Below are positions 12,541 through 36,110 of a DNA stretch of 64,000 nt, one piece after another. A program made the position numbers and the translations under genes. Source of the stretch: an uncultured Clostridia bacterium (GTDB taxonomy: Bacteria; Bacillota; Clostridia; Oscillospirales; SIG627). Each line of letters begins with the position of its first letter. The stretch's first letter is position 1. The stretch covers positions 62,001 to 126,000 of the forward strand of contig CANQBV010000002.1 of assembly GCA_947589595.1 (NCBI GenBank), read 5' to 3'. The notes beneath the pieces were generated by a model. The model was not told where the DNA came from, did not search any database, and saw only the letters and a list, made by a program, of their open reading frames with translations.

Positions 12541-12635
12541 TTCGTTTATGACATGTGTTATGGGGTTTCCGCAGCACTTTCTACGCTTTTCAGGCGAAAA
12601 AATAAGGACTTCTCTCTCTGCAAATTCCTTTTTGA

Positions 12636-12699
12636 AGTCAGAAAAGTTTTTGAAAGGGGGTTTGGGGGGAACCTTTTTCAAAAGGCCTCCCCCAAGCCC
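12636..12699 (-). repeat. Dispersed 3'-UTR repeat, copy abutting the dehydrogenase stop
   Basis: Read on the minus strand, the stop is followed by a GGGGGAGGCC segment, TTTTGAAAAAGG, TTCCCCCC, AAACCCCC and CAAAAACTTTTC. It is a diverged copy of the family but keeps the order of GC-rich part, A/T hairpin and AAAAACTTTTC tail. Confidence 0.55.
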
Positions 12700-13647
12700 T
12701 TACGACACAACATTCTGCGGATTTCCCGCAAGATATGCGGCCACATTATCGGCGGCGATCCCGATCAGCCGGGCGCGGGTTTCGCGCGGGGCCCAGGCAA
12801 TATGCGGCGTCAAAAATAAATTCTTCGCCCCGATCAGCGGACAATCCGCCCGCTGCGGCTCCTCGGAAAGAACATCAGCGGCGTACCCGGCAATTTTGCC
12901 GCCGTCCAGCGCCGCGCGCAGGTCAGCCTCGGCAGCCAGTCCGCCGCGGGCGGTATTGATCACAAACGCCGTGGGCTTCATCAGCGAAAGCGTTTCGGCG
13001 TTGATGATCCCGCGAGTGGAATCGTTCAGCGGGCAATGAAAACTCAGATAATCGGCGCGAGCAAACAATTCTTCCAGGGGAACAAGTTCATACGGCACTT
13101 CTTTTTTCGTGCGGGCATGATAAATAATTTTCATCCCAAACGCTGTTCCGATAGACGCCACCTTTTGCCCGATTGTACCCATCCCGAAAATCCCCAGCGT
13201 TTTCCCGCTGATTTCCGATATCGGAAACGGGTAATAGGTAAACAGCGGCGAACGCTGCCAATCGCCGTTTTGTACGGACGAAACATAGGTAAAAAGGCTG
13301 GTCGCAAATTGCAAAATAAAGGCAAAGGTCAACTGTGCCACCGCGTCGGTGGAATAGGCGGGAACGTTCGTTACCGTAATCCCCCGCTTGCGACAAGCCG
13401 CTACGTCGATGGTGTTGTACCCGGTTGCCATGGCGCCGATATAGCGCAGCTTTTTGCAGGCTGCCAAAACCTCCTCTGTCATTTGCGATTTATTACAGAG
13501 AACTACCTCGGCGTCTCCGATCGTCTCCGCCAAATTTTCTTTCGGCACCCACTCGTATTCGCGCACGGTTCCGAATTTGCGAAACACATCCGCCTTTAAA
13601 TCGTTACCGTAGCAGGAGCTTCTTTCCAGAATACAGATTTCCATCAA
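12700..13647 (-). CDS. D-isomer-specific 2-hydroxyacid dehydrogenase
   Basis: This 315-residue NAD-dependent oxidoreductase would reduce a 2-keto acid to a D-2-hydroxy acid. A glycerate/hydroxypyruvate-type substrate is plausible but not proven. It has the Rossmann motif GMGTIGQKVASIGTAF, the signature FVINTARGGLAAEADLRAAL with the substrate-binding Arg, the Glu motif DVLSEEPQ, and the catalytic His in LFLTPHIAW. Its promoter is at 13691-13719. It is a monocistronic gene at the edge of the mobile element. Confidence 0.9.
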   Translation of the reverse strand: MMEICILERSSCYGNDLKADVFRKFGTVREYEWVPKENLAETIGDAEVVLCNKSQMTEEVLAACKKLRYIGAMATGYNTIDVAACRKRGITVTNVPAYSTDAVAQLTFAFILQFATSLFTYVSSVQNGDWQRSPLFTYYPFPISEISGKTLGIFGMGTIGQKVASIGTAFGMKIIYHARTKKEVPYELVPLEELFARADYLSFHCPLNDSTRGIINAETLSLMKPTAFVINTARGGLAAEADLRAALDGGKIAGYAADVLSEEPQRADCPLIGAKNLFLTPHIAWAPRETRARLIGIAADNVAAYLAGNPQNVVS

Positions 13648-13690
13648 TTTTTTCCTCTACCGTTCCAAACCGGTCTTTTTTTGTTTTATC

Positions 13691-13719
13691 AGTATAGCCG
13701 AATTCCGATCGAAAGTCAA
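13691..13719 (-). promoter_or_regulatory. Sigma-A promoter of the dehydrogenase gene
   Basis: On the minus strand TTGACT (13719-13714) and TATACT (13696-13691) are 17 bp apart. This fixes DNA left of about 13720 as host sequence. Confidence 0.88.
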
Positions 13720-13774
13720 GTCCAAAGGCAAAAATACCACCGCCCGTTTCTGCGTTTCCGATAGATGAATTTAT

Positions 13775-14002
13775 CCCGTCCGAAGGACGGGTTGAGTTGA
13801 AAAAGGTTTTTTCGGCTGTTTGGCGGAGAGAGTTGAACTCCTGTGTGGGTGGCGGGAGCCGCAGGCGTAGAGCGGAGCTTTTGTTTTTTGAGCAAAAGCT
13901 TCAACCGGAGGCAAGGCGGACGTGGGGATAAGGAGGGACAGCCCGTCAAGCGACGCCGTGATTTACAAAGTAAATCGCGGCAAGCCACATGGACTTGCCG
14001 CG
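13775..14002. other. Strongly structured segment at the left junction of the mobile element
   Basis: No convincing gene lies between 13648 and 13945, but the stretch holds several hairpins: CCCGTCC/GGACGGG at 13775-13791, AGCTTTTG/CAAAAGCT at 13877-13900, a 12-bp stem GCCGTGATTTAC/GTAAATCGCGGC at 13955-13981, and CGCGGCAAG/CTTGCCGCG at 13976-14002. The last two share 13976-13981 and so exclude each other. The final hairpins overlap the 3' end of the recombinase gene. It may be a structured RNA, an attachment region or an insertion target. Confidence 0.55.
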
Positions 14003-15589
14003 ACGTGGTGGACGCCGGGACGAAGCAGTTGAACCCCCCGCAGCGTCGGTTTCAACGGCTTCGTTGACGATGCTCCAGGCGAGAGACCTCTTGTCGCTGC
14101 CATAAAAGAACGTGGTCACAATCTTGTCGTCGTACACGTAGATGGCCTCGACGTAGTTTTCAAGGAAATAGTCTCGGATGACAGGGTCGTCAAAGTCGGC
14201 GTATCGGTAAGTCGCCAGCAGCCGGAGGGTCCCCGCCTCGTCATCCGAGACGGTCTGCATCCGTTCTTCCAGCTCGATTTCGTCCGACAGGGCTTTCTTC
14301 CGGGCTTCCAGCTCTTGGAGCGCGGCCTGGGTCGTCTCCGAGAATATGCCGTTCATCAGGGCGTTGACCAGGTTGTTCAGCTTCCGGTCCACGTCCTTTT
14401 TGGCCGCCAGGAGCATTTCCAGCTTGCCGCTGTCCTGCTCCCGCTCCCGCCGCAGTTTGGCGGTGATGTCGGCCGCCAGGGCGGAAAAGATGTTCTCGTC
14501 CTGCACGAACGTATAGAACAAGTGGATGACGGCCCCCTCAAGGACGGCTTTCTTGATGGGCTTCTTGTGGCAGAGTTTCCGGCGCTGCGACTTGCAGTAA
14601 TAGTAATAATGCTTCGTCGCCCGCGTTTTGGACGTGCCGCTCACGCCCTGCATGGTGTCGCCACAATGGCCGCAGAACAGCTTCCCGGTCAGCCAGTAGC
14701 GGGGCGCTGGGGCATCCCCTATGGCCTCGTGTTTCAGCTCGTTTGCCCGGCGGGACCCGTCCCGCTTGTTCTGTGCAAGCCGCGACTGCGCTTTCTTGTA
14801 AAGTTCCTCGTCGATGATGGCGGGTATCCCTCCCGGCTTTTCCGCGCCCTTGTACCGGTAGACGCCTATGTAGGCGGGGTTTGTGAGTATCTTCCGCATA
14901 CCGTTGATATTGAACGGCCCGCCCGTGCTGGTCCGCAGCCCCTCGCCGTTCAGCGCCTTGCAGATTTCAGCCATGGGGACGCCGTCCGCGTACTCCCGGT
15001 ATATCCGCTGGACGATGGGGGCCGTGGCCGGGTCGATGGCGTAACGCTTCCGGTGCTTGCCGTGTTCCGGGGCCGGTTCCGCCCGGTATCCGAGGATTTT
15101 ATATCCGGCGCACAGGCACTTTTCCGCTATGTCACGCTGCCCGCGTGATATGTTCTCGGACATATTGGCGGAGTAGTTTTCCGCCTCTGCGGCCCGCATG
15201 GCGAGGACCATCAGCTCCGTCTCCCGGTTCTCGATGTTGGCGTCCGCAACGAATTTCAGCTTGATGCCCGCGTCCATCAGCCGCCTACGCGCCACCAGGA
15301 AATCGGCGGCGTTGCGGTTCAGCCGGTCGATTTTCCAAAGGATAAGCACCGAGGGCTTGACCCGCTCGATTTCCCGGAACATCTGCATATAGCCGGGGCG
15401 GTCGGTGTCCGTCCCCGTCCGGGCGTAGTCCTCATACTCGCGGCAGATGGTGTATCCGTGCTGTTCGGCAAACCTGTGCGCCTCCAGGCGCTGCTGGTCT
15501 ATCGAGGCGTCGGACTGGCTGTCTGAGCTGAACCGGTAATAGGCGATTGCAAGGTTGTTGTCGTTCTGGATGAATTTCTGGACTGCCAT
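13946..15589 (-). CDS. Large serine recombinase (site-specific integrase/excisionase)
   Basis: This 547-residue recombinase likely integrates and excises the element. The N-terminal resolvase domain has the catalytic Ser in AYYRFSSDSQ, followed by a DxxxxRPGYMQM segment and LWKIDRLNRNAADF. A Recombinase domain follows (ILGYRAEP to TNPAYIGVYRYKG), then a zinc ribbon (LFCGHCGDTMQGVSG and YYYCKSQRRKLC) and a coiled coil. The last 20 or so residues (rich in Arg/Pro, then MWLAAIYFVNHGVA) are atypical and are encoded in the hairpin region at the element border. They may come from the junction rather than the original gene. The start follows AGAAAGGGGGTG. Confidence 0.93.
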   Translation of the reverse strand: MAVQKFIQNDNNLAIAYYRFSSDSQSDASIDQQRLEAHRFAEQHGYTICREYEDYARTGTDTDRPGYMQMFREIERVKPSVLILWKIDRLNRNAADFLVARRRLMDAGIKLKFVADANIENRETELMVLAMRAAEAENYSANMSENISRGQRDIAEKCLCAGYKILGYRAEPAPEHGKHRKRYAIDPATAPIVQRIYREYADGVPMAEICKALNGEGLRTSTGGPFNINGMRKILTNPAYIGVYRYKGAEKPGGIPAIIDEELYKKAQSRLAQNKRDGSRRANELKHEAIGDAPAPRYWLTGKLFCGHCGDTMQGVSGTSKTRATKHYYYYCKSQRRKLCHKKPIKKAVLEGAVIHLFYTFVQDENIFSALAADITAKLRREREQDSGKLEMLLAAKKDVDRKLNNLVNALMNGIFSETTQAALQELEARKKALSDEIELEERMQTVSDDEAGTLRLLATYRYADFDDPVIRDYFLENYVEAIYVYDDKIVTTFFYGSDKRSLAWSIVNEAVETDAAGGSTASSRRPPRRGKSMWLAAIYFVNHGVA

Positions 15590-15649
15590 TCCGGCACCCC
15601 CTTTCTCTTGTGTGATAATCCCCTCGCAGGACGTCCCTGGACGGCCTGT

Positions 15650-15718
15650 GAGGCGTTTTAAGCCTCTCTGAGTATAACTGACCGTCTCGCGGCTAAAGCC
15701 CCTTAAAACGCCTCTGAG
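15650..15718 (-). promoter_or_regulatory. Leader element upstream of the serine recombinase (copy 1 of an in-element repeat)
   Basis: The recombinase leader contains a perfect 13-bp inverted repeat, GAGGCGTTTTAAG (15650-15662) with CTTAAAACGCCTC (15702-15714). The 40 bp at 15679-15718 are nearly identical to 20101-20140 in the leader of the RadC gene. The rest of the 15590-15950 gap holds the divergent promoter of the 15951 gene. Confidence 0.7.
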
Positions 15719-15863
15719 AGCGTCTGAGTGGCATAGCCGTTTGAAACGTCTTTTTCCTGTCCGGCTGACAGTCTATTTTAGCACGTTTACGCTCATTTAT
15801 CAAGGTTCACACGGGAAATCTCGTGATTTTCCGCTCATTTTTGTAGAAAATGGCCGAAACCCC

Positions 15864-15893
15864 TTGACTTTCATACGTATGCAGGTATATACT
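15864..15893 (+). promoter_or_regulatory. Promoter and probable operators of the R-M operon
   Basis: TTGACT (15864-15869) and TATACT (15888-15893) are 18 bp apart. The spacer holds the palindrome CATACGTATG (15872-15881), and TACTTATACAAGTA (15891-15904) is another near palindrome. These are plausible sites for the small DNA-binding protein encoded next. Confidence 0.7.
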
Positions 15894-15950
15894 TATACAA
15901 GTAACTGCTATTATGACCGGGGTCGTCCGGCGATATGAAAGGAGAACGCT

Positions 15951-16148
15951 ATGGCAAAACGGGATAACGCGCTCGGCAGGTGCGATGCTGCCGCAACGGG
16001 GCATGATACAGAGCAGAGCGGCAAGACGACCATCACGCTGTCCATCACTGAGGCGGACAAGCTGAAGGTCAAGGTGTACGCGATGGCGCATAAGACGACG
16101 GTATCTGACCTGCTGCACGGGTGGATACAGGAGAAATGTGAGAGCTAA
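15951..16148 (+). CDS. Small ribbon-helix-helix-like DNA-binding protein
   Basis: The 65-residue protein ends in KTTITLSITEADKLKVKVYA then HKTTVSDLLHGWIQ. That is a beta strand plus two helices, as in Arc/CopG/ParG-type proteins. It may control the operon or partition the element. It lies 17 bp before the methyltransferase gene, has ribosome binding site AAAGGAG and shares the promoter at 15864-15893, where palindromes could be its operators. The function is inferred from the fold alone. Confidence 0.65.
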   Translation: MAKRDNALGRCDAAATGHDTEQSGKTTITLSITEADKLKVKVYAMAHKTTVSDLLHGWIQEKCES

Positions 16149-16165
16149 TTTAGGAGGAATCAACC

Positions 16166-17212
16166 ATGAGTAGCACAAATTCGGGACCCGTTATGGTGTC
16201 TTTATTTTCAGGGGGCGGCGGCCTTGATAGAGGTTTCATGAACGCTGGATATAATGTCGTTTGGGCAAATGACTTTGATGCTGACGCCCAAGCTGTTTAT
16301 CGTTTGAACTTGGGCGATATTGACGGGAGGGATATTCTCACTGTCCCGGAGGACGAGATTCCAGACTGTGATATGCTGACGGCAGGTTTTCCGTGCCAGC
16401 CATTCTCTAACGCCGGGATGCGTAAGGGCGTTCATGATTCGCGCGGAATGCTCTATAAAGAGTGCTTGCGGATTATTGGAAAGAAAATGCCGAAAGCAAT
16501 TTTGTTTGAGAACGTCAAAGGTTTACTGTCCACAAAGTATATTGACGGTCGGAAGTTAGCTGATGTGATTGTGGAAGATTTGTCTACCATGAACGGTATC
16601 GGCTACAATGTGGTCTATCAGTTGGTAAATGCAGCAGATTATGGCGTACCGCAGAATAGGCAGCGTGTTCTTTTCATCGGCATTCGGAAAGATTTGAATA
16701 TCAACTTTGTTTTCCCGGATAAGCAACCCAGGGACCGGCTGACACTTCGGTATGTTCTGGATATTCCGACTACCGCAACGCATCAGGTGGATTGGCCGTT
16801 ATCCCCGCAGGCATTGGAAATGATTTCATACATCCCAGAGGGTGGTTCTTGGAAAGATGTGCCGTATGAGCATTTGGCACCACGCTTTAAGCGTATTCGA
16901 GATGACATGAAACGGTATCATTCTCCAAACTTTTATCGGCGTTTTTCACGGGATGAGATTTGTGGGACTATGACGGCATCGGCCCAGCCTGAAAACTGCG
17001 GCATCATTCATCCTACCGAAAATCGGCGCTTTACTATTCGTGAAGTGGCTCGCATTCAGTCGTTCCCGGATGACTACAAATTCATTGATGGCACGTTAAA
17101 GGATATAACGGCCATGTATAAGGTCATTGGCAACGCAGTCCCTGTCAATTTGGCATGTGCCATTGCCACTGCTATTCGGCAGCAAGTATTTGACGGGGGT
17201 GAAGAAAAATGA
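16166..17212 (+). CDS. DNA (cytosine-5-)-methyltransferase
   Basis: This 348-residue enzyme methylates cytosine C5 within a specific DNA site. Ordered motifs are: I, LFSGGGGLDRGF; IV, GFPCQPFS with the catalytic Cys; VI, ENVKG; VIII, QNRQRVLF; IX, RFTIREVARIQSFP; X, GNAVPV. The target recognition region between VIII and IX is short, so it is a compact Dcm-type enzyme. The next gene starts in ATGA at its stop, so methylation and the downstream proteins are translationally coupled. The sequence recognised cannot be read. Ribosome binding site TAGGAGG. Confidence 0.95.
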   Translation: MSSTNSGPVMVSLFSGGGGLDRGFMNAGYNVVWANDFDADAQAVYRLNLGDIDGRDILTVPEDEIPDCDMLTAGFPCQPFSNAGMRKGVHDSRGMLYKECLRIIGKKMPKAILFENVKGLLSTKYIDGRKLADVIVEDLSTMNGIGYNVVYQLVNAADYGVPQNRQRVLFIGIRKDLNINFVFPDKQPRDRLTLRYVLDIPTTATHQVDWPLSPQALEMISYIPEGGSWKDVPYEHLAPRFKRIRDDMKRYHSPNFYRRFSRDEICGTMTASAQPENCGIIHPTENRRFTIREVARIQSFPDDYKFIDGTLKDITAMYKVIGNAVPVNLACAIATAIRQQVFDGGEEK

Positions 17213-18594
17213 TGGATACTGATAAGGCATATATCCTTGGGCTGATTATAGGCGGCGGTATTTGGGGAAATGCTGAGGACGTTTTCCGTATTCGACTTCC
17301 GTATAAACAATGGGGGTCTTATGAGGCAAACCCAAAACGCGCTGGAGATATTTCCAGAGATGTAATGCGGATGGTCAGCCCGTTGTTTCGTGTCATTTAT
17401 GGTATTACTGTTTCCTATGACACATCTGCCGGGGGTGTTTGGAACATTCTCTGCGAGGGCGATTTGAGCGCTCTAAAGGCGGAGTTAGAGGGATATGGCA
17501 TCAAGTGCGAGGGCGAGGTTCGTAAGACCGCTAACATAAATCGCATTGTGCCAGAATTGGTGGATGACAATTTGAAACGGCGGTTTATTGCCGGTCTTGC
17601 AGATACCATTGGCAGCACAAAGCGTTCTCATAGGAGATTCAATGACGATAAGCAAATGGTGTCTTTTGAAATCTCTGGATTTGAGTTTGATTTTGTATGT
17701 TCTCTTTGTAAGCTGCTTCATAGCATAGGCTGTTATCCGGACCAGATTCTTTGGAATCATCCGAATTTCCACTGCGCAAGCAATCCATACGACAGAAAGT
17801 GGAAAAAAGGCTTTAAGCTCCGTGTTTATCTTGACCAGTACGAAAAATTCGGCGCTTTTGCGTTTACATCCAAGGTTTTATCTGTTCAAGAGAATAAATC
17901 GCTGGAAAGCGCCGAGAATGTGGCAATACCGTGTCCAGAGCGGGAAATCAAAATGCCGTCTGTAACGTGCGTTCATTGTGATGAGGGAAGTCCCCTTTTG
18001 CCCGATACGATACGTGGCGGTCACTATCTACATAATCGTCACGTTTGCGCAGTTTTGGAATGTGAACATGCACCGTATGGGGCGGTTTCTGAATTACTAT
18101 CTCATGCAGAATACTGCATCAATCCGTTTCCGGTACTGGTGAAAGGGCGTTTGGACGACATCCTTTCTATTTTGGAAACAGAAGAAATTTACAGAAACTG
18201 TCATTTTCGCACCATACGTGTGAGGATTGCGGACCTTTATGGTGATACAGACAGAACCCTGCTGTTTGGAGATGGTCAAGAAGCTGGCTATCCGTTGAAC
18301 AAAGTCATCTTGGCTATAACTTTCTTAATTGCCGCTGTTACGGACCAGCTTAACGGACTACGCCCGAGAGGGTCAAAAGATAAGATTATTGAGGACTATC
18401 TGAAACAGAATCCGAACGCTGAGGTTTTTATCCGCGTGCCAGACCTTATGACTGCCATTGTGGTTGAAATGGGCGCTTACGCCGCCTTAGTCGGCGCAAA
18501 TAATCCTCGTGTGTACAGAAAGCTCATTCAAAGAGACCCTGCAAATCGCTATAAGATAAGCGTGCGCCCTATCACGGAGGATGATTTGAAATGA
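17209..18594 (+). CDS. LAGLIDADG-like protein of the R-M operon, function unknown
   Basis: This 461-residue protein has two LAGLIDADG-like helices: YILGLIIGGGIWG (about residues 8-20) and FIAGLADTIGS (126-136), spaced as in two-repeat LAGLIDADG endonucleases. The positions that should carry the catalytic acid (Asp before the last Gly) appear to be Gly and Ile, so it may bind but not cut DNA. A later Cys/His cluster (Cys254-x2-Cys257, then His278 and Cys280) could bind zinc. The C-terminal half is unrecognised. It overlaps the methyltransferase and the following nuclease in ATGA, which argues for a complex or specificity subunit. Homing activity is an alternative. Confidence 0.75.
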   Translation: MMDTDKAYILGLIIGGGIWGNAEDVFRIRLPYKQWGSYEANPKRAGDISRDVMRMVSPLFRVIYGITVSYDTSAGGVWNILCEGDLSALKAELEGYGIKCEGEVRKTANINRIVPELVDDNLKRRFIAGLADTIGSTKRSHRRFNDDKQMVSFEISGFEFDFVCSLCKLLHSIGCYPDQILWNHPNFHCASNPYDRKWKKGFKLRVYLDQYEKFGAFAFTSKVLSVQENKSLESAENVAIPCPEREIKMPSVTCVHCDEGSPLLPDTIRGGHYLHNRHVCAVLECEHAPYGAVSELLSHAEYCINPFPVLVKGRLDDILSILETEEIYRNCHFRTIRVRIADLYGDTDRTLLFGDGQEAGYPLNKVILAITFLIAAVTDQLNGLRPRGSKDKIIEDYLKQNPNAEVFIRVPDLMTAIVVEMGAYAALVGANNPRVYRKLIQRDPANRYKISVRPITEDDLK

Positions 18595-19217
18595 GACACA
18601 GTAAAAATGAGGTTGCGCATTATCCAGAAATAATGCGTTGTGTTGAAATGCAATTACAAAGCAATTTTAGGGCTGCTGGAGTGACTGACCTCAAAATTTA
18701 CTGGAAAAGCGGAGAATTGACAGCAAAAATAAAAGAGCTGGTGCAGGAGCATCCGGACACTTGTTCCTGCATGGCAGGTTATAGCCGCTCTACTCCTCCA
18801 TTAAATCTTGATATTTTTGCCGTGGTTACAGATGGTCGGAAGTATGAGATAGTCATTCTGGAAGTGAAACTGCGGGAGGCCGTTGGCCTTAATCAATGGT
18901 CCCAGCTGATAGGATACAATCTGGTATCTAATGCTCGCTATGGCTTGCTGATAAACATTGATGCCGGGGCGAGTAGTCGATTGGAGGGCATATTGGCTTC
19001 TGATGTGGACGCGTCTCGGATTGTACGGCAAAAGGCCGATGGAACTACGGTAGAACACCTTTTGGGGTTCATGGAATGGAATACCGTAACACAAAATTTT
19101 GAGTATTCCGGCTTGGGGCAAATACACTCTCTTTCAGCTTTGAGTAAAGCCCTGATTTCAAGGTTTGAATATCACACGAAAAGGAGCGTGATTCATCATG
19201 GCAAAGAAGTCTTATAG
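18591..19217 (+). CDS. Putative PD-(D/E)XK nuclease of the R-M operon
   Basis: The 208-residue protein has a PD-(D/E)XK-like core: LNLDIFAVV with Asp74, then YEIVILEVKLREAVG with Glu91-x-Lys93, followed by a Gln-containing helix (NQWSQLIGYN) and a strand YGLLINI. An N-terminal helical region may contact DNA or the partner. Its start overlaps the preceding stop in ATGA. It is most simply the cleaving subunit of a restriction-like system with the two upstream genes. It could instead be another kind of nuclease such as a phage-defence effector. The assignment rests on motif spacing, not a search. Confidence 0.65.
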   Translation: MRHSKNEVAHYPEIMRCVEMQLQSNFRAAGVTDLKIYWKSGELTAKIKELVQEHPDTCSCMAGYSRSTPPLNLDIFAVVTDGRKYEIVILEVKLREAVGLNQWSQLIGYNLVSNARYGLLINIDAGASSRLEGILASDVDASRIVRQKADGTTVEHLLGFMEWNTVTQNFEYSGLGQIHSLSALSKALISRFEYHTKRSVIHHGKEVL

Positions 19218-20797: not shown

Positions 20798-21667
20798 TCA
20801 TGCAAGCGCCTTTTCGATGGCGTCTATCAGCTCTTGGGATGCCTTGCGGATGACGTCCATGCTGGAGGCCAGCTCCGGCGTCTTTTTGCCGGATGACCAT
20901 CCGGCGACGTATCCGAAAGAATAGTCCGACGTGTCCAGGCCGAAGTGCTGGCATACGATGTAGGCCACGCTTTCAGCTTGGACCTCTCTGGTGCGCTGGT
21001 CGGGTCCGTCCTTGGGCCGCTTGCCGTCCTCCGGGAGCGCGTGGAGCTTGGCATGGGCGATTTCGTGGATGGCAGTCTTGACGGTCTGAAGCTCGCTCAT
21101 GTTCTCGTTGATGGCGATTCTCCGTTCCGTATGGCTGTAATAACCGTGCGCCCCTGTGGTGATAGGTTCAAAGCCCATCGGGACCGGGGAGATGCGCTCC
21201 AGCGCGTCAAGAATCGCCGGGTACTGCTCCACCGTTCCGGTCAGCTCGTCCACGCCCAGCGTTGGCAATTCCTCGCCGTCGGTCTGCGACACATCGAATA
21301 CGGATACGACCTTGCAGCATACGATTTCGTCCTCTTTCTCGGCGTCCGGGTCATCCCCGTCTTTGCTTTTTGCGTAAATCACGGGTGCAAAGATGCGGAT
21401 GCCTTTCTCGCCCTTGCGGACCTGACGATGGAACTTTTTCTGCCAGTCGTTGTAGCCAGCGACCAGAGAAGCGTCGGGTTTCTGCATCCAGATAAGCACG
21501 GCGTTTCGGAAGCTGTACTTTCTGAATTTGGACATGGTGCGTAAGAAGCGCGCATAGTTTTCGGACGCGAAAACGGACTGCACGCCCTGTTCCAACTGCT
21601 CCAAAAGCTCTCGGACCTTTTCCTCTCTCGTGGCATGGTTGGACATCGTGTTGGTTGGGTTTCTCAT
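20798..21667 (-). CDS. ArdC-type antirestriction/zincin metallopeptidase protein
   Basis: The 289-residue protein has an ArdC-like N-terminal ssDNA-binding domain (residues about 15-110, with a WMQKPDASLVAGYNDWQKKF segment) and a C-terminal zincin with HEIAHAKLHA as the metal site and a downstream Glu. ArdC-type proteins protect incoming DNA during transfer. The start at 21667 follows AAAGGAGAG. A TTG six bases further upstream is possible but less likely. On this element it would fit protection of transferred single-stranded DNA. Confidence 0.85.
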   Translation of the reverse strand: MRNPTNTMSNHATREEKVRELLEQLEQGVQSVFASENYARFLRTMSKFRKYSFRNAVLIWMQKPDASLVAGYNDWQKKFHRQVRKGEKGIRIFAPVIYAKSKDGDDPDAEKEDEIVCCKVVSVFDVSQTDGEELPTLGVDELTGTVEQYPAILDALERISPVPMGFEPITTGAHGYYSHTERRIAINENMSELQTVKTAIHEIAHAKLHALPEDGKRPKDGPDQRTREVQAESVAYIVCQHFGLDTSDYSFGYVAGWSSGKKTPELASSMDVIRKASQELIDAIEKALA

Positions 21668-22090
21668 AGACAATCTCTCCTTTGTGTAAAAAATTTGGCC
21701 GGGGTCGGGCGGAAAAGCCCCTCCCCCTTAATTACCAAACCGGCCGCCCACGGCGGCCTTATCACGGGGAGGTATGACAGGGGGGGAGGACAGGGCGCAA
21801 ATCACACAAAGGGTCACAGGGAAAGGGTGTGAAAAATTAGCGTGTCGCAAGACACGCGGTCGGTCACATCCGAAGTTTTTCAACATCCTGCCCATGCCGA
21901 AAAGAGATGCAAGGGAAAAACGGCCGGTGGCGGTTTGTCCCTGCCGGGTGAGAAAGGGTCAAGGGGAAACGGGCAGCGTCCGGCGTCCCCTTGTCGGGAA
22001 AAAAGGGTGCAGGGAAAAAGGGGCAGACAGTCCCTTTGCCTTGCCCGATAGGGGGTGTCCAGAGGGGGAAAAGCGGAGCGGCTCCCCCTT

Positions 22091-22246: not shown

Positions 22247-22756
22247 ATGAGTGAAGCGAAGGGCGGCGCTCCCAGGAAGGGCGAGTTGGTTCCGCTGACC
22301 GTAAGGTTCACGCGGGAAGCATACGATGCCATCCGGGAGATTGCCAACGAAAATAATATATCCACGGCCGCACTTGTGCGGATAGCCGTGGATATGGAAA
22401 TCGACCGGTATTTGAGCCTGATTCGTTTTTTGGATTACGGCATGGAGAAACAAGTCAAAGATTCCGTCAGGGGGCTTTTCACGGAGACCCAAAAGGTACT
22501 TTTTGAGTTGAGGCGTATCGGTGTCAACTTCAATCAGCAGGCGCGGCTCTATAACTTAAAAAAGTCTTTTGACCGGGAGATGAAGAACGCTCCCGCTGGT
22601 TCGCGAATCGACCTGATGCAGAGGCAGATGGCGATGGAAAAGCAAATCCAGGCCGAGTGCAAACCGCTCGACATGGAGAAGCTGGAAGAATTGATAGCCC
22701 GCTTTGAGGCAGCGTCGCGGGAGGTGAACAAGGTCCTATGTCGCATACTACCATAA
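22247..22756 (+). CDS. MobC-like relaxosome accessory protein
   Basis: The 169-residue protein has an N-terminal ribbon-helix-helix (PLTVRFTREAYDAIREIA then NISTAALVRIAVDMEID) and a helical C terminus with VNFNQQARLYN, typical of MobC/relaxosome proteins. It should bind oriT and help the relaxase, and probably represses its own promoter. It overlaps mobA by 19 bases. Ribosome binding site GAGGAGG. Confidence 0.85.
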   Translation: MSEAKGGAPRKGELVPLTVRFTREAYDAIREIANENNISTAALVRIAVDMEIDRYLSLIRFLDYGMEKQVKDSVRGLFTETQKVLFELRRIGVNFNQQARLYNLKKSFDREMKNAPAGSRIDLMQRQMAMEKQIQAECKPLDMEKLEELIARFEAASREVNKVLCRILP

Positions 22757-24021
22757 GCAAGACGAGAAGCGGACGCGCCCTGCTGGATTACGTCCTTGAT
22801 GAAAAAGCTCACAACGGTATCGGGGTCCGCAATCAGCTTGTAGTCCCTGTGAACCTTGCCAGCGGTGATGCGGAGTCCTACGGCGACCAAATGGCCGCCG
22901 TGTGGTGCCGCCGTTCGTCCAAAAACAAGAACGAGGCCCGTCACGTTATCACCAGTTTCTCGAAAAAGGAGCTTGACCCGAATGACCCTGCCGACTGGAT
23001 GCTGGCGGGCGCGATTTGCCAGGAGTTCGTGGAACAAAACTACCCCGGCTTCCAGGCAATTATCGCTATCCAGACGGACGGCAAGGGCGGATGTGTCCAC
23101 GGTCATATCGTCATCAACAATACCCGCATGGCAGACTTCAAGGGCTGCACGGACGAGCAGACAAAGGCGTGGTTCGTGCGTCAGAAGATGGACGACATCA
23201 TCTCGAAGCACATGGAAATCGACCACGGCAAGGAGCAGGACGTCCCGGAGAAAATCGGCGAGAAGTCCATGCGCGACAAGGGCGGAAAGTACGTCTGGAA
23301 AGATGACCTGCGCGACCGGATTTTGCAAGCGCGGGACGCAGCGAAAGACTTCGACGATTTTATGAGTACGCAGCTCCCGGCCGTGGGCGTCTCGGCGGAA
23401 TATCATCCGGGCGGCACAAAGCGCACCGGCAAGGTGATAGACCCCTACATCACCTACAAGCTGGAGGACGTGAGCGGATTTGGGGATGGGAAGATACCGG
23501 AGAATTTGAAATCCAGGAGCAACAAGCTCGGCACAGAGTTCGGCCCCGAGGGTCTGGAGAAAGCATGGCAGAAAGGCCCCGTCGTCACACAGCCCGTGAC
23601 ACCTGCCCCGCCCGCGCCTGTGTTCACGGTCCCGGAAGTTCGGCCTACGGACGACGGCTACATGACCTATGATGAATGGGCGCAGCAGCACGGGTTCACG
23701 TCCCCGGAGGACCTTGTCCTGCACTTTGACGACTACCGGGCGGACAAAGAGGCGGCGGCGCAAAAGGCCAAGGAGCCGCCCGCCGAGGTGCCGGAACAGT
23801 CGGACGCCGAGTTGCCTGTTAAGCCGCCCGTGGAGGAACCCCCGCAGGAAACCTACGATGACCGCCGCAAGCGCGAACGGGAGGAAATCCTGAAAAGGCA
23901 GAAGCAGCGACTGAGCGAGGATGCCGCTGGTGAGGTCGAGAACGCCCAGGCCATTTATCGCCGGATGCGCGAACAGGCGCAGAACAGGCGGCAGAAACAG
24001 GGCGACTACGGGGACGAGTAA
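22738..24021 (+). CDS. MobA/MobP-type relaxase
   Basis: The 427-residue relaxase nicks one strand at oriT and stays covalently attached to lead DNA transfer. The N terminus has an invariant Tyr in LLDYVLDEKA. The metal site is visible as GCVHGHIVINN (two histidines), and the C terminus is a Pro-rich, charged tail. The start overlaps the mobC end, so the two are coupled. The tail has no helicase domain, so unwinding must come from the host or from the element's helicase. Confidence 0.9.
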   Translation: MSHTTISKTRSGRALLDYVLDEKAHNGIGVRNQLVVPVNLASGDAESYGDQMAAVWCRRSSKNKNEARHVITSFSKKELDPNDPADWMLAGAICQEFVEQNYPGFQAIIAIQTDGKGGCVHGHIVINNTRMADFKGCTDEQTKAWFVRQKMDDIISKHMEIDHGKEQDVPEKIGEKSMRDKGGKYVWKDDLRDRILQARDAAKDFDDFMSTQLPAVGVSAEYHPGGTKRTGKVIDPYITYKLEDVSGFGDGKIPENLKSRSNKLGTEFGPEGLEKAWQKGPVVTQPVTPAPPAPVFTVPEVRPTDDGYMTYDEWAQQHGFTSPEDLVLHFDDYRADKEAAAQKAKEPPAEVPEQSDAELPVKPPVEEPPQETYDDRRKREREEILKRQKQRLSEDAAGEVENAQAIYRRMREQAQNRRQKQGDYGDE

Positions 24022-24146: not shown

Positions 24147-24749
24147 ATGATACGGGGATACGCAAGGGTTAGCACCAAGGGGCAGGTGTTGGGGACTTCG
24201 CTGGAGGACCAGCGCAAGGCCCTGACCGCCGCCGGGTGCCAGGAAATCTATGAGGACGTTATGTCCGGGGCAAAGATGGACAGGCCGGGCTTCGACAGGT
24301 TGAAGAACGACCTGGCCGCCGGTGATACGGTTGTCGTCACGGCGTTCGACCGTTTCGCCCGCACCGTGGGCGAGGCGTATATCCAGGTGGAGGAATGGTT
24401 CAAGAAAGGCGTCCGCGTCTGGATACTGAACCTTGGCGTCATCGAGGATACCGAGATGGGCCGCATACTCATGGGCATTATGCTCGTCTTTGCGGACTTT
24501 GAGCGCCGGACCATCATCCGACGCTTGCAGGGCGGCCGGGCGTATAAGCGGGCGAATGACCCAGGCTACCGGGACGGGCGCAAGCCGAAGTTCACGGAGG
24601 CGCAGCTCGACCTTGCCGTGGAGCTGCTGGAGAATCACAGCTATACCGAGGTAACCGGCCTGACGGGCATCTCGCGCTCGACGCTGACAAGGGCAGCCAG
24701 AGCGCGGGGGTTCAACAAAGAGAGTCCCTTTGTGTCCGGGAATGTTTAA
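24147..24749 (+). CDS. Small serine recombinase (resolvase/invertase family)
   Basis: The 200-residue protein has the resolvase catalytic domain with Ser in YARVSTKGQ, the arginine motif DRFARTVGEA, and a C-terminal helix-turn-helix (YTEVTGLTGISRSTLTRA). It probably resolves dimers of the excised, replicating form through the res-like site at 24031-24122. It is distinct from the large recombinase at 13946. The ribosome binding site is GAGGTG. Confidence 0.92.
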   Translation: MIRGYARVSTKGQVLGTSLEDQRKALTAAGCQEIYEDVMSGAKMDRPGFDRLKNDLAAGDTVVVTAFDRFARTVGEAYIQVEEWFKKGVRVWILNLGVIEDTEMGRILMGIMLVFADFERRTIIRRLQGGRAYKRANDPGYRDGRKPKFTEAQLDLAVELLENHSYTEVTGLTGISRSTLTRAARARGFNKESPFVSGNV

Positions 24750-24958
24750 GAGCCGCGTCGAAGCGGCGCTGCCGCCCCGACAGGGGCGGTGACCCATCCG
24801 GCCGATGCCCTTGTGGCAGCGGCGGGAAAAAATTGCTGTTTGGTCTGCTGTTGTGCCTACTGTATGTTTGCTGTTTTTGGATGCTGTTTTGGGATGCTGT
24901 TTGGCTTGCTGAAAAACAGAAAAAATCTAAAAACTAACGAAAGGTAAGGTACAACGAA
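24750..24958. repeat. Intergenic hairpin and short TGCTGTTT repeats
   Basis: After the resolvase comes a CCGCCCC/GGGGCGG hairpin, then five or more irregularly spaced TGCTGTT(T) units at about 24832-24912. No gene is seen. The AT-rich leader of the lipoprotein gene follows. The function of the repeats is unknown. Confidence 0.45.
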
Positions 24959-26218
24959 ATGAAAAAGATTTTAGCTTTTGTCCTGGCGGTGGCTTGCACT
25001 CTGTCACTGGCCGGATGCGGCGGGAACAATGCCCGCCCGGAGGACGTGTCCGATGCTCTTGTGGAGGAACAGCTCCCGGAGCCTGGCGGCGCGGCGAGTT
25101 TCGACGATGAAGGCTCGGGGGCGGAGGGACAGCCCACGGAAACCCCGCAGGGCGGGGTCGTCAGTCTTGACGAAATTCAGGAGAAGTTCAACAGTCTCGT
25201 CTATGAGAGTATTTCCGGTGACTATAACAGACCGGACAGCTTCAAGGGTTATGTTGATGTCTGGAAGGGCACCAATCTTGTTTGTTCCTTTTATGACGTC
25301 AATATGTATGATTATCCCTTATATGACGAGACCGGTTCAGAAAATGTTTATGACTTTAGCGGACTTTCTGTCAATGATTTGATTTCCGCTTGGGGCGAGC
25401 CTGATACTCGCGAATTGGACGGCAGTATTACGAAATTGGTATGGTATCTGGATGAGCCTTTGGACAGATTCGCAGACGATTTCCCTGATTTGTGTGTTGT
25501 TCCTGTGGTGGAGTCAAAATACCATACTTGTATGACGGTCGAAGCGATGAACGAAGATATTTGTAATGTCTCTGTTGCAAGTTGCCTCTATCACAAGCAC
25601 TCTCCGGGAGAAAATTATGGTGCGCTTTGGGATGGGACTGTTGTTTGCGAGGGAATGCTTGCTAACAGAACAACATATTTTACCGGTATAGACAACGTGG
25701 TGAAAAAAATGGAAATAACCGCATTCTTAACCGCGTTCAACGGGAACGGATATGCTTTTAACAACGATAACGAAGTCACAATGTTGTGGGGCGAGGATTA
25801 TACTGTCAGTGACGTGGTGAATGCGAATCCGAATCTCGGTGAAAACGCTTTTGCTTTGTACGCCAAAAAGGAAAATGTGCCGGATGAAATCGACCCGTCA
25901 AAGCCGCTTACGGCCTATGTATCCGGGCTGTATGGTGATTTTCGTGGGGATTACGACAATCCCGTGTATGTGAATGGGGTATGTGTGCGCTCAATAGACG
26001 ATGTTCCGGCGCTTATTGATGTAATCGGTACGCCGTCAGAAGTTTCTGCCTGGAACATGGTGTCGTCTGAATATTTTGATGCTTCAGAAGGCTATGCTGC
26101 CAAATACACGTGGTATATGGACGATGGCTGGAATGTATCTATTAGTTTTGATGACGACATCGTTGCAGACATCGTTACAGTTGAATTTAGTTTTTCAAAG
26201 TGGCGTGTGAGTGAGTAA
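24959..26218 (+). CDS. Element-encoded lipoprotein with two related repeats
   Basis: The 419-residue protein starts with a lipoprotein signal (MKKILAFVLAVACTLSLAGC). The Cys at residue 20 would be lipidated and the protein exposed outside the cell. A low-complexity acidic linker follows. The body seems to hold two related units, around residues 130-170 (WGEPDTRELDG then WYLDEPLDRF) and 340-415 (IGTPSEVSAWN then WYMDDGWNVSI). No family was recognised. It is AT-richer than the backbone and ends before a bidirectional terminator. Confidence 0.75.
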   Translation: MKKILAFVLAVACTLSLAGCGGNNARPEDVSDALVEEQLPEPGGAASFDDEGSGAEGQPTETPQGGVVSLDEIQEKFNSLVYESISGDYNRPDSFKGYVDVWKGTNLVCSFYDVNMYDYPLYDETGSENVYDFSGLSVNDLISAWGEPDTRELDGSITKLVWYLDEPLDRFADDFPDLCVVPVVESKYHTCMTVEAMNEDICNVSVASCLYHKHSPGENYGALWDGTVVCEGMLANRTTYFTGIDNVVKKMEITAFLTAFNGNGYAFNNDNEVTMLWGEDYTVSDVVNANPNLGENAFALYAKKENVPDEIDPSKPLTAYVSGLYGDFRGDYDNPVYVNGVCVRSIDDVPALIDVIGTPSEVSAWNMVSSEYFDASEGYAAKYTWYMDDGWNVSISFDDDIVADIVTVEFSFSKWRVSE

Positions 26219-26288: not shown

Positions 26289-27356
26289 TCAGGGACGTGC
26301 GCCCGGTGCGGTCAGCAGCGGGTGACCGAGCGGAAGCGGGAGCTGCCGTATCGTGTCGAATTGCGGGAAATACTCGAACGGGAACGTGATGCCCGTGCGG
26401 CCGTAGCGGTTCTTCAAGATGACCAGCTCGATTTCACGGGGTATCTGCGCCTTGGCGTTCCTGATGTCATCCCGCTTTTCCTTGATGCGACCCTCTTTCT
26501 CGAAAAGCGGGGTGTTCAGAACGGATAACTGCAAGCCCCAGATGACGTCGGCGGTGTACTCGATGCCGCCGCTCTCCTTGAAGCTCTCGAAGTCGATGGG
26601 CGTCATGTAGTTCATCCGGTTCAGGCTGGAAATCAGGATGACCGTCAGGTTGTTCTTCACCTGGAAGCACTTGATTTCGTGGACGATGTGGTCAACGGCG
26701 GACTTGGCGTCCGGCTGGCGGCCGTTGATGAGCGTCGGCGAGATGATTTGCAGGTAGTCGATGACGACAACGGGAGCGATTTTTGTCTTTTCGATGTATT
26801 CGTCCACAATCTTCTCGATGTCCTCGATGGTCACGCTGAAGTTGCACTCGTAGACGGTCATGCTGTCGCCGACGGTGTTGACGTAGTTGTCGATGACCTC
26901 CTGAAGCTCCTTTGTCCCGTTGGCCTCACCCCGCCGCAGGGCGATGCTCGTGTAGGTGGGATAGGTGCTGTTCTTCTTGATTTCCTCCTGCTGCCGCAGG
27001 AAGAAGCCGCGGGAGAGGGACTTGGACCGCAGCTCAAATTCGGACTGCTCCAGGCTGAAATACAGCACGGGGTAGCCGGGGACGATGCTGCCGGTCGTGG
27101 AGAGGCGGTTGGACGCCATCTGGTCGGCCATCTGGTGGATGAACGTGGTCTTGCCGAGGCTGGAGATAGCGCCCAGGACGTAGAGGCCGGGATACAGCGG
27201 CTGCAAGCAGTCCAGGTTCCCGTAGCCGGTGTAGCCGTAGGCGTGCGGGACGAAGTTGTTGACGTCGTTCTGGAACCGGCCGCCGTTGAAGTAGTCCTTG
27301 GCGGAGTGGAATTGGACGGCGGCCTGTGCCGGCGTCTTGTTGTCTTGGTCTGGCAT
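26289..27356 (-). CDS. DnaB-type replicative helicase domain protein
   Basis: The 355-residue protein (start at 27356, after AAAGGAG) corresponds to the RecA-like C-terminal domain of DnaB. Walker A is GAISSLGKTTFIHQ and Walker B is VVVIDYLQII. Later motifs include RNRYGRTG-like residues (KNRYGRTGITF). The N-terminal primase-interaction domain of host DnaB is missing. It lies on the far side of the iterons from the putative initiator, so it probably loads at the element's own origin. A RecA/KaiC-like role is less likely. Confidence 0.85.
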   Translation of the reverse strand: MPDQDNKTPAQAAVQFHSAKDYFNGGRFQNDVNNFVPHAYGYTGYGNLDCLQPLYPGLYVLGAISSLGKTTFIHQMADQMASNRLSTTGSIVPGYPVLYFSLEQSEFELRSKSLSRGFFLRQQEEIKKNSTYPTYTSIALRRGEANGTKELQEVIDNYVNTVGDSMTVYECNFSVTIEDIEKIVDEYIEKTKIAPVVVIDYLQIISPTLINGRQPDAKSAVDHIVHEIKCFQVKNNLTVILISSLNRMNYMTPIDFESFKESGGIEYTADVIWGLQLSVLNTPLFEKEGRIKEKRDDIRNAKAQIPREIELVILKNRYGRTGITFPFEYFPQFDTIRQLPLPLGHPLLTAPGARP

Positions 27357-27660
27357 GGTGTCATGTCTCCTTTCATGCGGGGGAATGTACGTTGAACAGT
27401 GACGCTGCGACGCGCCCGCCCGCCTGACGGCGGGTCGGGCTTGTCGATTTTCAAAAAATATCACAGTGAAAAGGCGAGATGCCGAGAGATGCTTCTTTCA
27501 GCAGCTTCTCTTTGCTCTGTGACCCTTTCCTCTAACTCCCGGGACGCGCCCGCGCCCGAGAGGGCGCGCCCCGGCGGGGATTAGGGTCTTAAAAGACCCT
27601 AAGTTCTTAGGAGCGGAAATTTGCTCTCGTGGTCGAAATATTCACGACGCTGGAAAAGCC
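27357..27660. other. Leader region of the dnaB-like gene, no gene
   Basis: Between the helicase start and the iterons there is a GC-rich hairpin (27414-27424 with 27429-27440) and a perfect 22-bp palindrome at 27581-27602 (TTAGGGTCTTA and its complement). No coding region was seen. This is probably regulatory or part of the origin. Confidence 0.5.
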
Positions 27661-27823
27661 GTAGTCATGCTCGTGAGAATTTGTAGTCATGCTCGTGAGA
27701 ATTTGTAGTCACCCTCGTGAGGATTTTTAGTCATGCTCGTGAGGATTTTGAGCTGCCTGTTTAGAGGCCAGTAGTCACCCTCGGGGCAATTTGTAGTCAT
27801 GTACGGAGAAATTTGTAGTCACC
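27661..27823. repeat. Phased 22-bp iterons, probable replication origin
   Basis: Six copies of a 22-bp unit (GTAGTCATGCTCGTG then AGAATTT, or close variants) follow each other without spacers at 27661, 27683, 27705, 27727, 27771 and 27793, with a partial copy at 27815. One degenerate unit of exactly 22 bp (27749-27770) keeps the phase. Units of two helical turns are typical of initiator-binding iterons. The initiator-like gene ends 14 bp away. Confidence 0.82.
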
Positions 27824-27837
27824 TTTTTTTGCTCCGT

Positions 27838-28950
27838 TCAGGTAGCCTTTTGAGGCTTCACGGTTCCCTTGTGGCTGAACGTGAGAACGAGGTCCAGCTT
27901 CCCCATTGTGGGGATAACGTCCGGTATCTGTAAACCCTGGTATTTGTCTTGCAGCTTGACGTACTTCGGGTCCCGCAGGATTTTCCATGCCCCGGAAAAG
28001 GCATTCCGCAAGATGCGGTTTTTGTTGGCGGCATTGGTGCAGCAATCCAGGGCATATTCCATCTCCGGGCATTCGTGGATAATGTTCTTGACCGTGATGT
28101 GCGGGGTCCCGTTCGGTCCTGCCTGCTCAATCAGCCGGTCAATGACGCAGACGATTTCCACGGCCCGCTTGTTGCGTTCCGATGTCAGCGTCGCGCTCAG
28201 AGCGTAGCTGTGCGACGGGAGCATCTTGGGCTTTCCGCTTCGCGTGACCTGTGGCTTGTTCTGGCTGTCCCGCTGTATGTTTTTCATCACCACGGTTTTG
28301 GCGATGTAGGCCATGTACGGCGATGAAAACTTGATGGTGTTGGTCTCGGCCTCGTAGCCGTTGAAGTGCATGACAGCGTGCTGCGAGGGGATGCCGCGTC
28401 CGGGGACCATTGTGATGCCGATGAGACCGTTAAACGAGTACATTTTGTTGATGAGCAGTTGAATATGCTCGTCGTCCGGGGTTCCTTTTACTCCGATTGC
28501 TCTGTAGAAATCTGGTACATACAGTCTGATTTCTTCGTCGGTTCCTATTTTCTGCAAGATGTCGGTCAGTTCGTTGACATCTTTCGCGTTTTCGATGCTC
28601 TGAAAGATGCGCTTTAAGACGACGGAATAGAGCATCCGCAGGAACGGGAAGTCGATATTTGCCAGCTCTTGCTTCTGATAATCTTCCTCCGTTGCGCGCC
28701 ACGTTCCGACTTGCAGGATGTCCGGGTTGTTTTTCAGCCTCTCAGCCAGCTCCTTGCTGATGGGCATGAGGTAGGCCCGGTTATCTTCCACGGACGTCAT
28801 GGCGTGGACGAGTTCGTTGTCCGTAAGGACAGCCATGGTGTTCGGTATCTCGTTGACGCCCCCTGCCAGTTTCCGTGTCCGGTATGTAGCTATGGCTGTT
28901 TCCGTTTCCGGGGTGATGGTCGTGATGTCATTTTCAGGCACGGTTCTCAC
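27838..28950 (-). CDS. Putative replication initiator (Rep-like)
   Basis: No family was recognised in this 370-residue protein. Its setting suggests an initiator: iterons lie directly after it, then a DnaB-type gene. Residues 290-350 (NRILRNAFSGAWKIL and nearby) could form a winged helix that binds the iterons. The 5' end overlaps the preceding gene by 17 bases, so it is probably coupled with it. An alternative is a helicase loader. Confidence 0.6.
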   Translation of the reverse strand: MRTVPENDITTITPETETAIATYRTRKLAGGVNEIPNTMAVLTDNELVHAMTSVEDNRAYLMPISKELAERLKNNPDILQVGTWRATEEDYQKQELANIDFPFLRMLYSVVLKRIFQSIENAKDVNELTDILQKIGTDEEIRLYVPDFYRAIGVKGTPDDEHIQLLINKMYSFNGLIGITMVPGRGIPSQHAVMHFNGYEAETNTIKFSSPYMAYIAKTVVMKNIQRDSQNKPQVTRSGKPKMLPSHSYALSATLTSERNKRAVEIVCVIDRLIEQAGPNGTPHITVKNIIHECPEMEYALDCCTNAANKNRILRNAFSGAWKILRDPKYVKLQDKYQGLQIPDVIPTMGKLDLVLTFSHKGTVKPQKAT

Positions 28951-29488
28951 CTGCTTTCTCTTCGGCCAGCAGCGCGTTGAATATTCTGTTTACGTACGGG
29001 CAGCACAAGACGATGGTGTTCGTTATCGGGTCGCTTTCGCACATTTGCAGAATGTTCAAGTAGGTGCCGGTCCCGCATGGGTTGGCCATGGTGAATTTTG
29101 TGCTGCCGTAGATTACTCCAAGGGCTTCACTGTTGGCGGCAACGGGGTCGGTCGGGTCGATTCCGAATAGCTTTATGACTCGGTTCTGGTTGATTCGGAC
29201 GTAGTAATCGCCGCCGATTGTGTCCACTTCACCGGCGCTGGCATTGCGGTCGTACACCTGCTCTATCTCGTCCCAGTGGCGTCTGGCCCCTTCCAGGTAA
29301 GGCCGCAGGAGCTTCCTCAGGGCCTCAATGTCGATGTCCTCGTCTTTCTCCGGCGGGACGTCAGAGAATACTTGCGTCCGTACATAGGCGCGGCTTTCCG
29401 GGATTCCCTCGAAAAAGAGGACGCCGTCCTCGTAGCGCAACGTGTCGGCGGTCTTGCCGCGCACGAGCTTGTTGATTCTCTCGGTCAT
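28934..29488 (-). CDS. Unrecognised protein of the replication operon
   Basis: The 184-residue protein (MTERINKLVRGKTADTLRYE) shows no motif known to me. It is acidic in the middle (DVPPEKDEDIDIEALRK) with a C-terminal segment rich in Cys (NILQMCESDPITNTIVLCC). It lies between the small ribbon-helix-helix gene and the initiator-like gene and is probably translated with the latter. A role in replication or partition is a guess from place only. Confidence 0.6.
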   Translation of the reverse strand: MTERINKLVRGKTADTLRYEDGVLFFEGIPESRAYVRTQVFSDVPPEKDEDIDIEALRKLLRPYLEGARRHWDEIEQVYDRNASAGEVDTIGGDYYVRINQNRVIKLFGIDPTDPVAANSEALGVIYGSTKFTMANPCGTGTYLNILQMCESDPITNTIVLCCPYVNRIFNALLAEEKAGENRA

Positions 29489-29752: not shown

Positions 29753-29791
29753 AAAAAAAGAAGCATGGACGAAAATCCATGCTTTCTTTTT
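29753..29791. terminator. Bidirectional terminator downstream of the tRNA genes
   Basis: AAGCATGGA and TCCATGCTT form a hairpin flanked by A and T runs on both strands. It would stop the tRNA transcript and marks the likely start of host DNA. Between it and tRNA-Ala is a second hairpin, CTTGGAG/CTCCAAG. Confidence 0.82.
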
Positions 29792-29878
29792 TCACTTGGA
29801 GTAGTCCTCCAAGTTCATGATGAGTACGATAGCGTTTCTTACGATGAGAACCTTTATGGGGTTCAACGCTTCGTACGA

Positions 29879-29954
29879 TGGTGGAGACGGAGGGATTCGA
29901 ACCCTTGACCTTACGGATGCGAACCGTACGCTCTCCCAACTGAGCTACGCCCCC
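29879..29954 (-). tRNA. tRNA-Ala (anticodon CGC)
   Basis: A full cloverleaf is visible: acceptor GGGGGCG with CGTCTCC including the alanine-identity G3-U70 pair, D arm GCTC/GAGC, anticodon loop TTCGCAT (CGC), and T loop TTCGAAT. Discriminator A73 and an encoded CCA follow. It is the second gene after tRNA-Leu. Confidence 0.95.
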
Positions 29955-30243: not shown

Positions 30244-30579
30244 TTATTCTGTAAACGTATACACGATAATAGGAATATTGCGCTTCCTGCAATAGTTGAT
30301 CACATACTGAGTTCCGCGAGAAACACCGTCCCAGAAAGCCAAAACCAAATCGGCGTTTTCTATAATTGTGATATTCCGCTTCAGCGGAGCCGCACGGCCG
30401 TACCTTTTATAATCAGGCAGGAACTCCGTCAGCTTTAATCCATTAGCTCTGGCCCATTCTCTGGCAGAAGTGTCCACACCTTTTGCTCCGCCTGACACGA
30501 TCTCAGTCACACAGCTCGGAAGATACCCCTCCAAGCTGTCTATTTTCAGCCCCCGCGATCCAACAACAGCGACTCTCAT
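30244..30579 (-). CDS. SLOG/DprA-like nucleotide-binding domain protein
   Basis: The 111-residue protein has the SLOG/DUF2493-like Rossmann signature: MRVAVVGSRGLKIDS, EIVSGGAKGVDTSAREWA and ADLVLAFWDGVSRGTQYVI. Such domains bind nucleotide-derived ligands. Some work in signalling or defence, but the role here is unknown. It is divergent from the 30695 ribbon-helix-helix gene with palindromes between, and a close paralogue is at 35769. GC is lower than neighbours, so it was probably acquired. Confidence 0.8.
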   Translation of the reverse strand: MRVAVVGSRGLKIDSLEGYLPSCVTEIVSGGAKGVDTSAREWARANGLKLTEFLPDYKRYGRAAPLKRNITIIENADLVLAFWDGVSRGTQYVINYCRKRNIPIIVYTFTE

Positions 30580-35768: not shown

Positions 35769-36110
35769 CTATTTTGCGGATTTTGGTTTGAATACCACGA
35801 CTTTTTTATTTCTTTTTTTACAGTTGTCGATCACAAATTTGGTGCCTTTTGATTTTCCGTCCCAAAACGCCAGCACCAGATCGGCATAGTCAATGATCTG
35901 CAGATTGCGAATCAGCGGCGCCGATTTTTGGTGCTTTTCATAATCCGGTAAAAATTCCGTCAGCTTGATCCCGTTCGCCCGTGCATATTCTCTCGCGCAG
36001 GCGTCGATTCCACGCGCACCGCCGGAAACGATTTCCGTTACCGTTTTCGGCACATATTTTTCTAAATTACCAATCTTCAGGTTCCGGGATCCGATAATCG
36101 CTACTTTCAT
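35769..36110 (-). CDS. Second SLOG/DprA-like nucleotide-binding protein
   Basis: The 113-residue protein closely resembles the protein at 30244 (MKVAIIGSRNLKIGN, EIVSGGARGIDACAREYARA, ADLVLAFWDGKSKGTKFVI). The two look like recent duplicates or parallel acquisitions. No regulator gene is next to this copy. A TATACT -10 lies at 36154-36149 on the minus strand. Function is unknown. Confidence 0.8.
   Translation of the reverse strand: MKVAIIGSRNLKIGNLEKYVPKTVTEIVSGGARGIDACAREYARANGIKLTEFLPDYEKHQKSAPLIRNLQIIDYADLVLAFWDGKSKGTKFVIDNCKKRNKKVVVFKPKSAK

Follow-up and report, generated by a model that had tools for sequence, protein, structure and literature searches.

A putative iteron replicon in an integrated mobilizable element of Clostridia: an undescribed initiator family paired with a DnaB-type helicase

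The initiators of the Rep_3 type bind iterons as monomers, open the duplex and help to load the replicative helicase (PMC4980987). Replicons of this class are scarcely documented in integrative mobilizable elements (IMEs): in a review of these elements, Rep_3-type initiators were recorded in two IMEs only, SGI1 and BcenGI2, and the survival and maintenance of the excised forms was described as an unexplored field (PMC5704250). In SGI1, the four 17-bp iterons of the rep-oriV region come immediately after rep, and the copy number of the island shows a 12-fold rise with its helper plasmid (PMC7433901). Here, we describe a locus from an uncultured, gut-type Clostridia bacterium, found within a stretch of 64,000 nucleotides (the window), that is likely an iteron-controlled theta replicon of an IME, with an initiator that would load the element's own helicase. 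What is new in this locus is the initiator family and the element's own primase-less helicase, whereas iteron-based theta replicons as such are already known from IMEs. Its significance is that a Clostridia IME would carry a full, conserved replicon with a new initiator family, a defined array and a partner helicase. The features are collected in Table 1.

Table 1. Features of the integrated element and its replicon (window positions; L006 is the second copy of the replicon, described in the text)
Feature	Position	Strand	Remarks
Large serine recombinase (Resolvase + Recombinase + Zn ribbon), probable integrase	13946..15589	-	left side of element
ArdC-type anti-restriction protein	20798..21673	-	
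MobC/NikA-like mobilisation protein	22247..22756	+	
MobA/VirD2-like relaxase	22738..24021	+	Relaxase, E 5e-11
Small serine resolvase/invertase	24147..24749	+	
Stand-alone DnaB-type helicase	26289..27356	-	355 aa from ATG 27356; DnaB_C, E=5.8e-21
Iterons 1-4, 22 bp each, helicase-proximal	27661..27748	-	AAATTCTCACGAGCATGACTAC + variants
22-bp phase-keeping spacer	27749..27770	.	unrelated to iterons; identical in L006 copy
Iterons 5-6 + 9-bp half iteron	27771..27823	-	half iteron GGTGACTAC; adjoining initiator stop codon
Replication initiator, 370 aa	27838..28950	-	new family; predicted fold of Pi/RepE/RctB (two winged helices)
ORF of 184 aa, overlaps initiator start	28934..29488	-	homolog: L006 copy only
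Arc-like ribbon-helix-helix protein, 80 aa	29495..29737	-	first gene of replication operon, candidate repressor
tRNA-Ala(CGC)	29879..29954	-	3' end = right junction of element

The array (27661-27823) consists of four 22-bp units, a 22-bp spacer, two further units and a half unit of 9 bp. Tandem Repeats Finder resolves it into two blocks (27661-27748, period 22, 4.0 copies, 90%; and 27771-27823, period 22, 2.4 copies), and the same register has been also recovered by a direct-repeat search. Read towards the helicase gene (minus strand), iterons 1-4 match the consensus AAATTCTCACGAGCATGACTAC at 22, 22, 19 and 20 of 22 positions, and iterons 5-6 at 17 and 16. Four sites lie within three mismatches of this consensus, against none in 100 shuffled windows, and these four are the sole ones genome-wide. 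The first-pass annotation had recognised the six units, the partial unit and the 22-bp phase, all of which stand, and had also counted a degenerate unit; however, the latter (27749-27770) matches the consensus at 3 of 22 positions, random 22-mers averaging 5.4, and is a spacer since it has no detectable similarity to the iterons. Its length is exactly one repeat, so that the phase is kept and the sequence is not. The initiator gene, the array and the helicase gene follow each other in this order and share one reading direction, and the placement of the array between an initiator and a DnaB-type gene in that earlier reading was correct. Having direct repeats in the 17-22 bp range that adjoin the initiator gene, the array shows the arrangement of an iteron theta replicon. 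On the other hand, no DnaA box (TTATNCACA, up to one mismatch) was found in 27341-27860, and AT content per 50-bp window between the helicase start and rep reaches a maximum of 62%, so that no sequence around the array is clearly AT-rich. The missing DnaA box and strong AT-rich stretch constitute the main departure from textbook origins. DnaA boxes are not universal among iteron plasmids; it is a speculation that an element bringing its own helicase could do without DnaA-dependent loading.

Both Walker motifs of the helicase are intact (A, SSLGKTT; B, VVVIDYLQI). The protein is devoid of the CHC2/TOPRIM primase part carried by most relatives, and is 33-40% identical to primase-helicases of small plasmids. 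Tandem repeats of 21-22 bp occur in all seven plasmid records inspected. Six records have them upstream of the helicase gene, and in the seventh, the Anaerotruncus plasmid (L071), they are about 2.6 kb away; the named plasmids with the shared anatomy are pSMQ308, p29887, pLRI05, pSTERM02, pRGI00116 and a S. haemolyticus plasmid. The initiator of pSMQ308 is of the Rep3_N type (E 3e-6), and the rep-iteron-helicase order and homologous helicase of such plasmids are also found in the window. A scan of IMG/VR with an alignment of the helicase family gave 80 loci, 57 of them with enough upstream sequence to be assessed; in 55 of the 57, a 20-24 bp tandem array lies upstream of the helicase at a distance of no more than 1.2 kb. 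Control windows taken from these loci had such an array in 16 of 458 cases, and downstream windows in 3 of 85. The period was 22 in 54 of 65 arrays. A second chromosomal element (L079, G730:C5:521001-541000, 9252-16485) has been observed with a tyrosine integrase, a 285-aa initiator, four 22-bp repeats and a stand-alone DnaB-type helicase, ordered as in the window; no direct repeats bounding it were found in the stretch examined.

The initiator, described in the first-pass annotation as of no recognised family, is indeed covered by no curated one: it was unmatched in Pfam, NCBIfam, PHROGs and the plasmid collection, and searches with the single protein gave no relatives in plasmids, phages, IMG/VR, 196 relatives or 394 genomes of the order. 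Among GTDB contigs one copy only was detected (97% identical). Homologs were reached through the partner helicase family, with 12 found among the ORFs of helicase loci (E 1e-46 to 1e-29, 25-33% identity, about 350 aa), and each of them is followed directly by an array and a helicase. By scanning with their alignment, the family was located on 26 IMG/VR metagenomic contigs, there too right ahead of iterons and helicase. Three of these contigs have exact terminal repeats (107, 123 and 127 bp) and are circular; a search of 398 genomes of the phylum with the family profile yielded no additional copy. As judged from these searches, the family appears to be previously undescribed. The motif AAATTGC..GTG..TAC is common to the window units and to the iterons beside homologous initiators, to which the window variant AAATTGCCCCGAGGGTGACTAC of the iterons 5-6 block is nearest. 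The window iteron matrix scores higher beside homologous than beside unrelated initiators (Mann-Whitney p=8e-5, uncorrected for relatedness and indicative only).

A sequence-profile search of the PDB with the initiator gave no related match, and Pfam Rep3_N was absent from the window protein and weakly matched in 2 of 24 family members (best E 0.006). An AlphaFold (AF2) model was built from the 24 sequences (pLDDT 80.7, pTM 0.83), the prediction without alignment being of no use (pLDDT 41). The model aligns to the Pi-iteron complex 2nra with Z 10.0 (229 residues, 4.3 A), to RepE (1rep, 8aan) with Z about 10 and to RctB with Z 9.2; these alignments span 200-229 residues, whereas unrelated folds drop to Z 4.6. 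Foldseek also placed RepE at the top (E 7.6e-3), a result weaker than that of the structural aligner. The predicted fold is thus the tandem winged helix of the Rep_3 / iteron-initiator superfamily; the absence of a winged-helix fold, which had been named beforehand as an argument against replication, is not what the model gives. As the window protein has no Rep3_N match above the cut-off, it is filed as Rep_3-like in fold, and not as a PF01051 member.

The sole other sequenced genome found with this initiator is a metagenome-assembled Clostridia genome from rabbit gut, whose contig (L006) shares 20.8-24.8 and 26.2-29.5 kb with the window at 97-98% identity and in which the element also abuts tRNA-Ala. 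Between both copies, none of the 163 bp of the array is changed, spacer included, and the gap between helicase and array differs at 5 of 301 positions. The helicase gene has 8 synonymous and no non-synonymous changes, and rep has 22 and 10, respectively (dN/dS about 0.13). This substitution pattern, together with the unchanged array, argues for a replicon under constraint, the array figure alone being only suggestive. A 1.4-kb segment with a gene for a 419-aa lipoprotein (24834-26215) is missing from the L006 copy, which from the comparison is a recent insertion in the window or a deletion in L006; in addition, the two copies differ strongly in the ribbon-helix-helix gene, while its neighbours are 97-99% identical, which has the look of an exchange by recombination.

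The replicon belongs to a chromosomally inserted region of about 16 kb (13.9-29.8 kb). It is an integrated mobile element, as first annotated, with genes for ArdC, a large serine recombinase, a relaxase and MobC around the replicon. With its site-specific recombinase (13946-15589) and a relaxase-MobC pair unaccompanied by any match to type IV secretion genes (14 element ORFs scanned with Pfam), it has the composition of an IME; ParA and ParB were absent among the examined ORFs. A lower-GC block (16166-19217, 45-48%) contains a C5 cytosine methylase followed by two ORFs of unknown type (461 and 208 aa), probably a restriction-modification cargo. The overlap of the 184-aa ORF with the initiator start probably reflects translational coupling; a comparison lent no support to this ORF being the split-off N-terminal part of longer initiator homologs, and IMG/VR scans with it and with the relaxase gave no matches. 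Beyond the element, two similar small YspA/SLOG-family proteins are encoded about 5.5 kb apart (30244-30579 and 35769-36110).

The right junction is placed at the tRNA-Ala 3' end because a sister genome of the L006 host shows an unoccupied site there, with the same tRNA-Ala and 5' flank followed directly by unrelated sequence. The 120 bp downstream of the tRNA (29755-29878) are near-identical in the two hosts and contain repeated ATCGTAnGAAnCG motifs, possibly recombinase-binding sites of the element end. The left flank has genes of chromosomal type, among them one for a 2-hydroxyacid dehydrogenase; a left attachment site sought as a direct repeat of the right end gave nothing above 9 bp, and synteny with genus relatives revealed no empty site for the window copy. 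Near the recombinase, the sequence TTGGCGGAGAGAGTTGAACTCC (13818-13846) resembles by eye the 3' end of a tRNA-Ser gene and is a possible attachment-site remnant. In the related genomes L052 (G003:C18) and L053 (G005:C47), a tRNA-Leu(CAA) beside mutY has an adjoining large serine recombinase gene or a duplicated tRNA 3' part, which marks this tRNA as a hot spot for insertion within the genus.

On the model of Rep_3 initiators, monomers of the initiator would bind the repeats on one face of the DNA, since 22 bp correspond to two helical turns, open the origin and load the DnaB-type helicase encoded just downstream. Priming would presumably depend on the host DnaG because the element helicase is without the primase domain of most relatives. 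Replication would be of the theta type. It would take place chiefly while the element is out of the chromosome, excised by its own recombinase, and would prevent the loss of the element before or after mobilisation by the MobC-relaxase pair; the ribbon-helix-helix protein heading the operon is a likely brake. As docking sites, initiator and helicase look like a complete replication unit, the element can probably copy itself after leaving the chromosome. The plasmid-type iteron origin initially suggested thus gains support from the predicted fold, the conserved gene-iteron-helicase anatomy (pSMQ308 included), the circular relatives and the array kept in L006.

Iterons of plasmids often double as control sites. 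The repeats could be operator or incompatibility sites at which the initiator or the ribbon-helix-helix protein acts to regulate the operon and nothing more, with the origin elsewhere or disused, and the intergenic stretch without DnaA box or clear AT-rich region would fit such a role. This is nevertheless unlikely, because in nearly all relatives the array lies between rep and helicase, downstream of rep and not at its promoter, and completed circular plasmids share this position with no other array reported upstream of the helicase. A role as a parS-like partition site or a transfer origin, suggested by ParA in many relatives and by the mobilizable nature of the element, is very improbable: the examined ORFs of the window element include no ParA/ParB, relaxase and MobC lie 4 kb from the array in opposite transcription direction, and the iteron sequence co-varies with the initiator family.

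A different possibility is that the locus is the fossil of a plasmid once fused to the chromosome, with replication genes in decay. The loss of the primase domain, the lipoprotein gene inserted beside the helicase relative to L006, and the fact that no circular form is known for the window element would be in accordance with this view. We hold it to be quite improbable, given that the replicon genes are open and intact, including the helicase motifs, that dN/dS is low and the array invariant between two copies in different genomes, and that the integrated element of G730 likewise retains iterons with a stand-alone helicase. An iteron replicon of an IME is the preferred reading, and integrated replicons are probably undercounted in gut Clostridia because current annotation misses such initiators.

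The initiator family has been also found on three circular contigs of 13-14 kb (L164/L129, which is IMGVR 3300045609_000029; L166/L141; and L167/L151). They encode ParA, terminase, portal, head protease, HK97-type capsid, connector and HNH endonuclease, with no tail genes in the parts read. Their appearance is that of head-only phage-plasmids or satellites equipped with a plasmid replicon of the iteron type, comparable to the capsid-forming PICIs. It is an evenly balanced possibility that one undescribed iteron-replicon family (initiator, 22-bp iterons and DnaB helicase) serves two life styles, namely mobilizable chromosomal elements with a primase-less helicase and circular 13-14 kb head-encoding elements. 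If true, the replicon module moves between conjugation-borne and capsid-borne satellites.

The known systems resemble the window locus in different respects. The head-encoding circular elements (e.g., 3300045609_000029, 13,274 bp) share a homologous initiator (25-33%), a related iteron motif in the same place and a related helicase; in contrast to the window element, they have ParA, terminase, portal, protease and capsid genes and no relaxase was noticed, their initiator bears an additional N-terminal part of 110-230 aa, and their helicase keeps the primase domain. Plasmids of the pSMQ308 type (S. thermophilus pSMQ308, p29887, pLRI05 and pSTERM02) likewise carry rep, 21-22 bp iterons and a DnaB-type helicase (34-41% identical to that of the window) in this order, but are free and circular, have the helicase fused to a TOPRIM primase and, in several cases, encode ParA and a tyrosine recombinase. 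Their initiator has no detectable sequence homology to that of the window; hhalign found 185 colinear columns between the two families, but with a probability of 0.2%. Pi (R6K), RepE (F) and RctB have two winged-helix domains, as does the window initiator model, but their sequences are not significantly similar to it (8-10% identity when aligned by structure); their iteron binding has been shown by crystal structures, while the window initiator is likened to them by predicted fold. Finally, SGI1 is, by analogy, the closest functional precedent: a mobilizable integrated island with an iteron replicon, in which oriV lies immediately downstream of rep, a gene precedes rep in the same operon, as at the window locus, and replication follows excision, the order also proposed for the window element (PMC7433901). 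It differs in its initiator, in its four 17-bp iterons, in belonging to Gammaproteobacteria, in having a predicted DnaA box and AT-rich regions, and in that the description of its replicon names no island-encoded helicase (PMC7433901).
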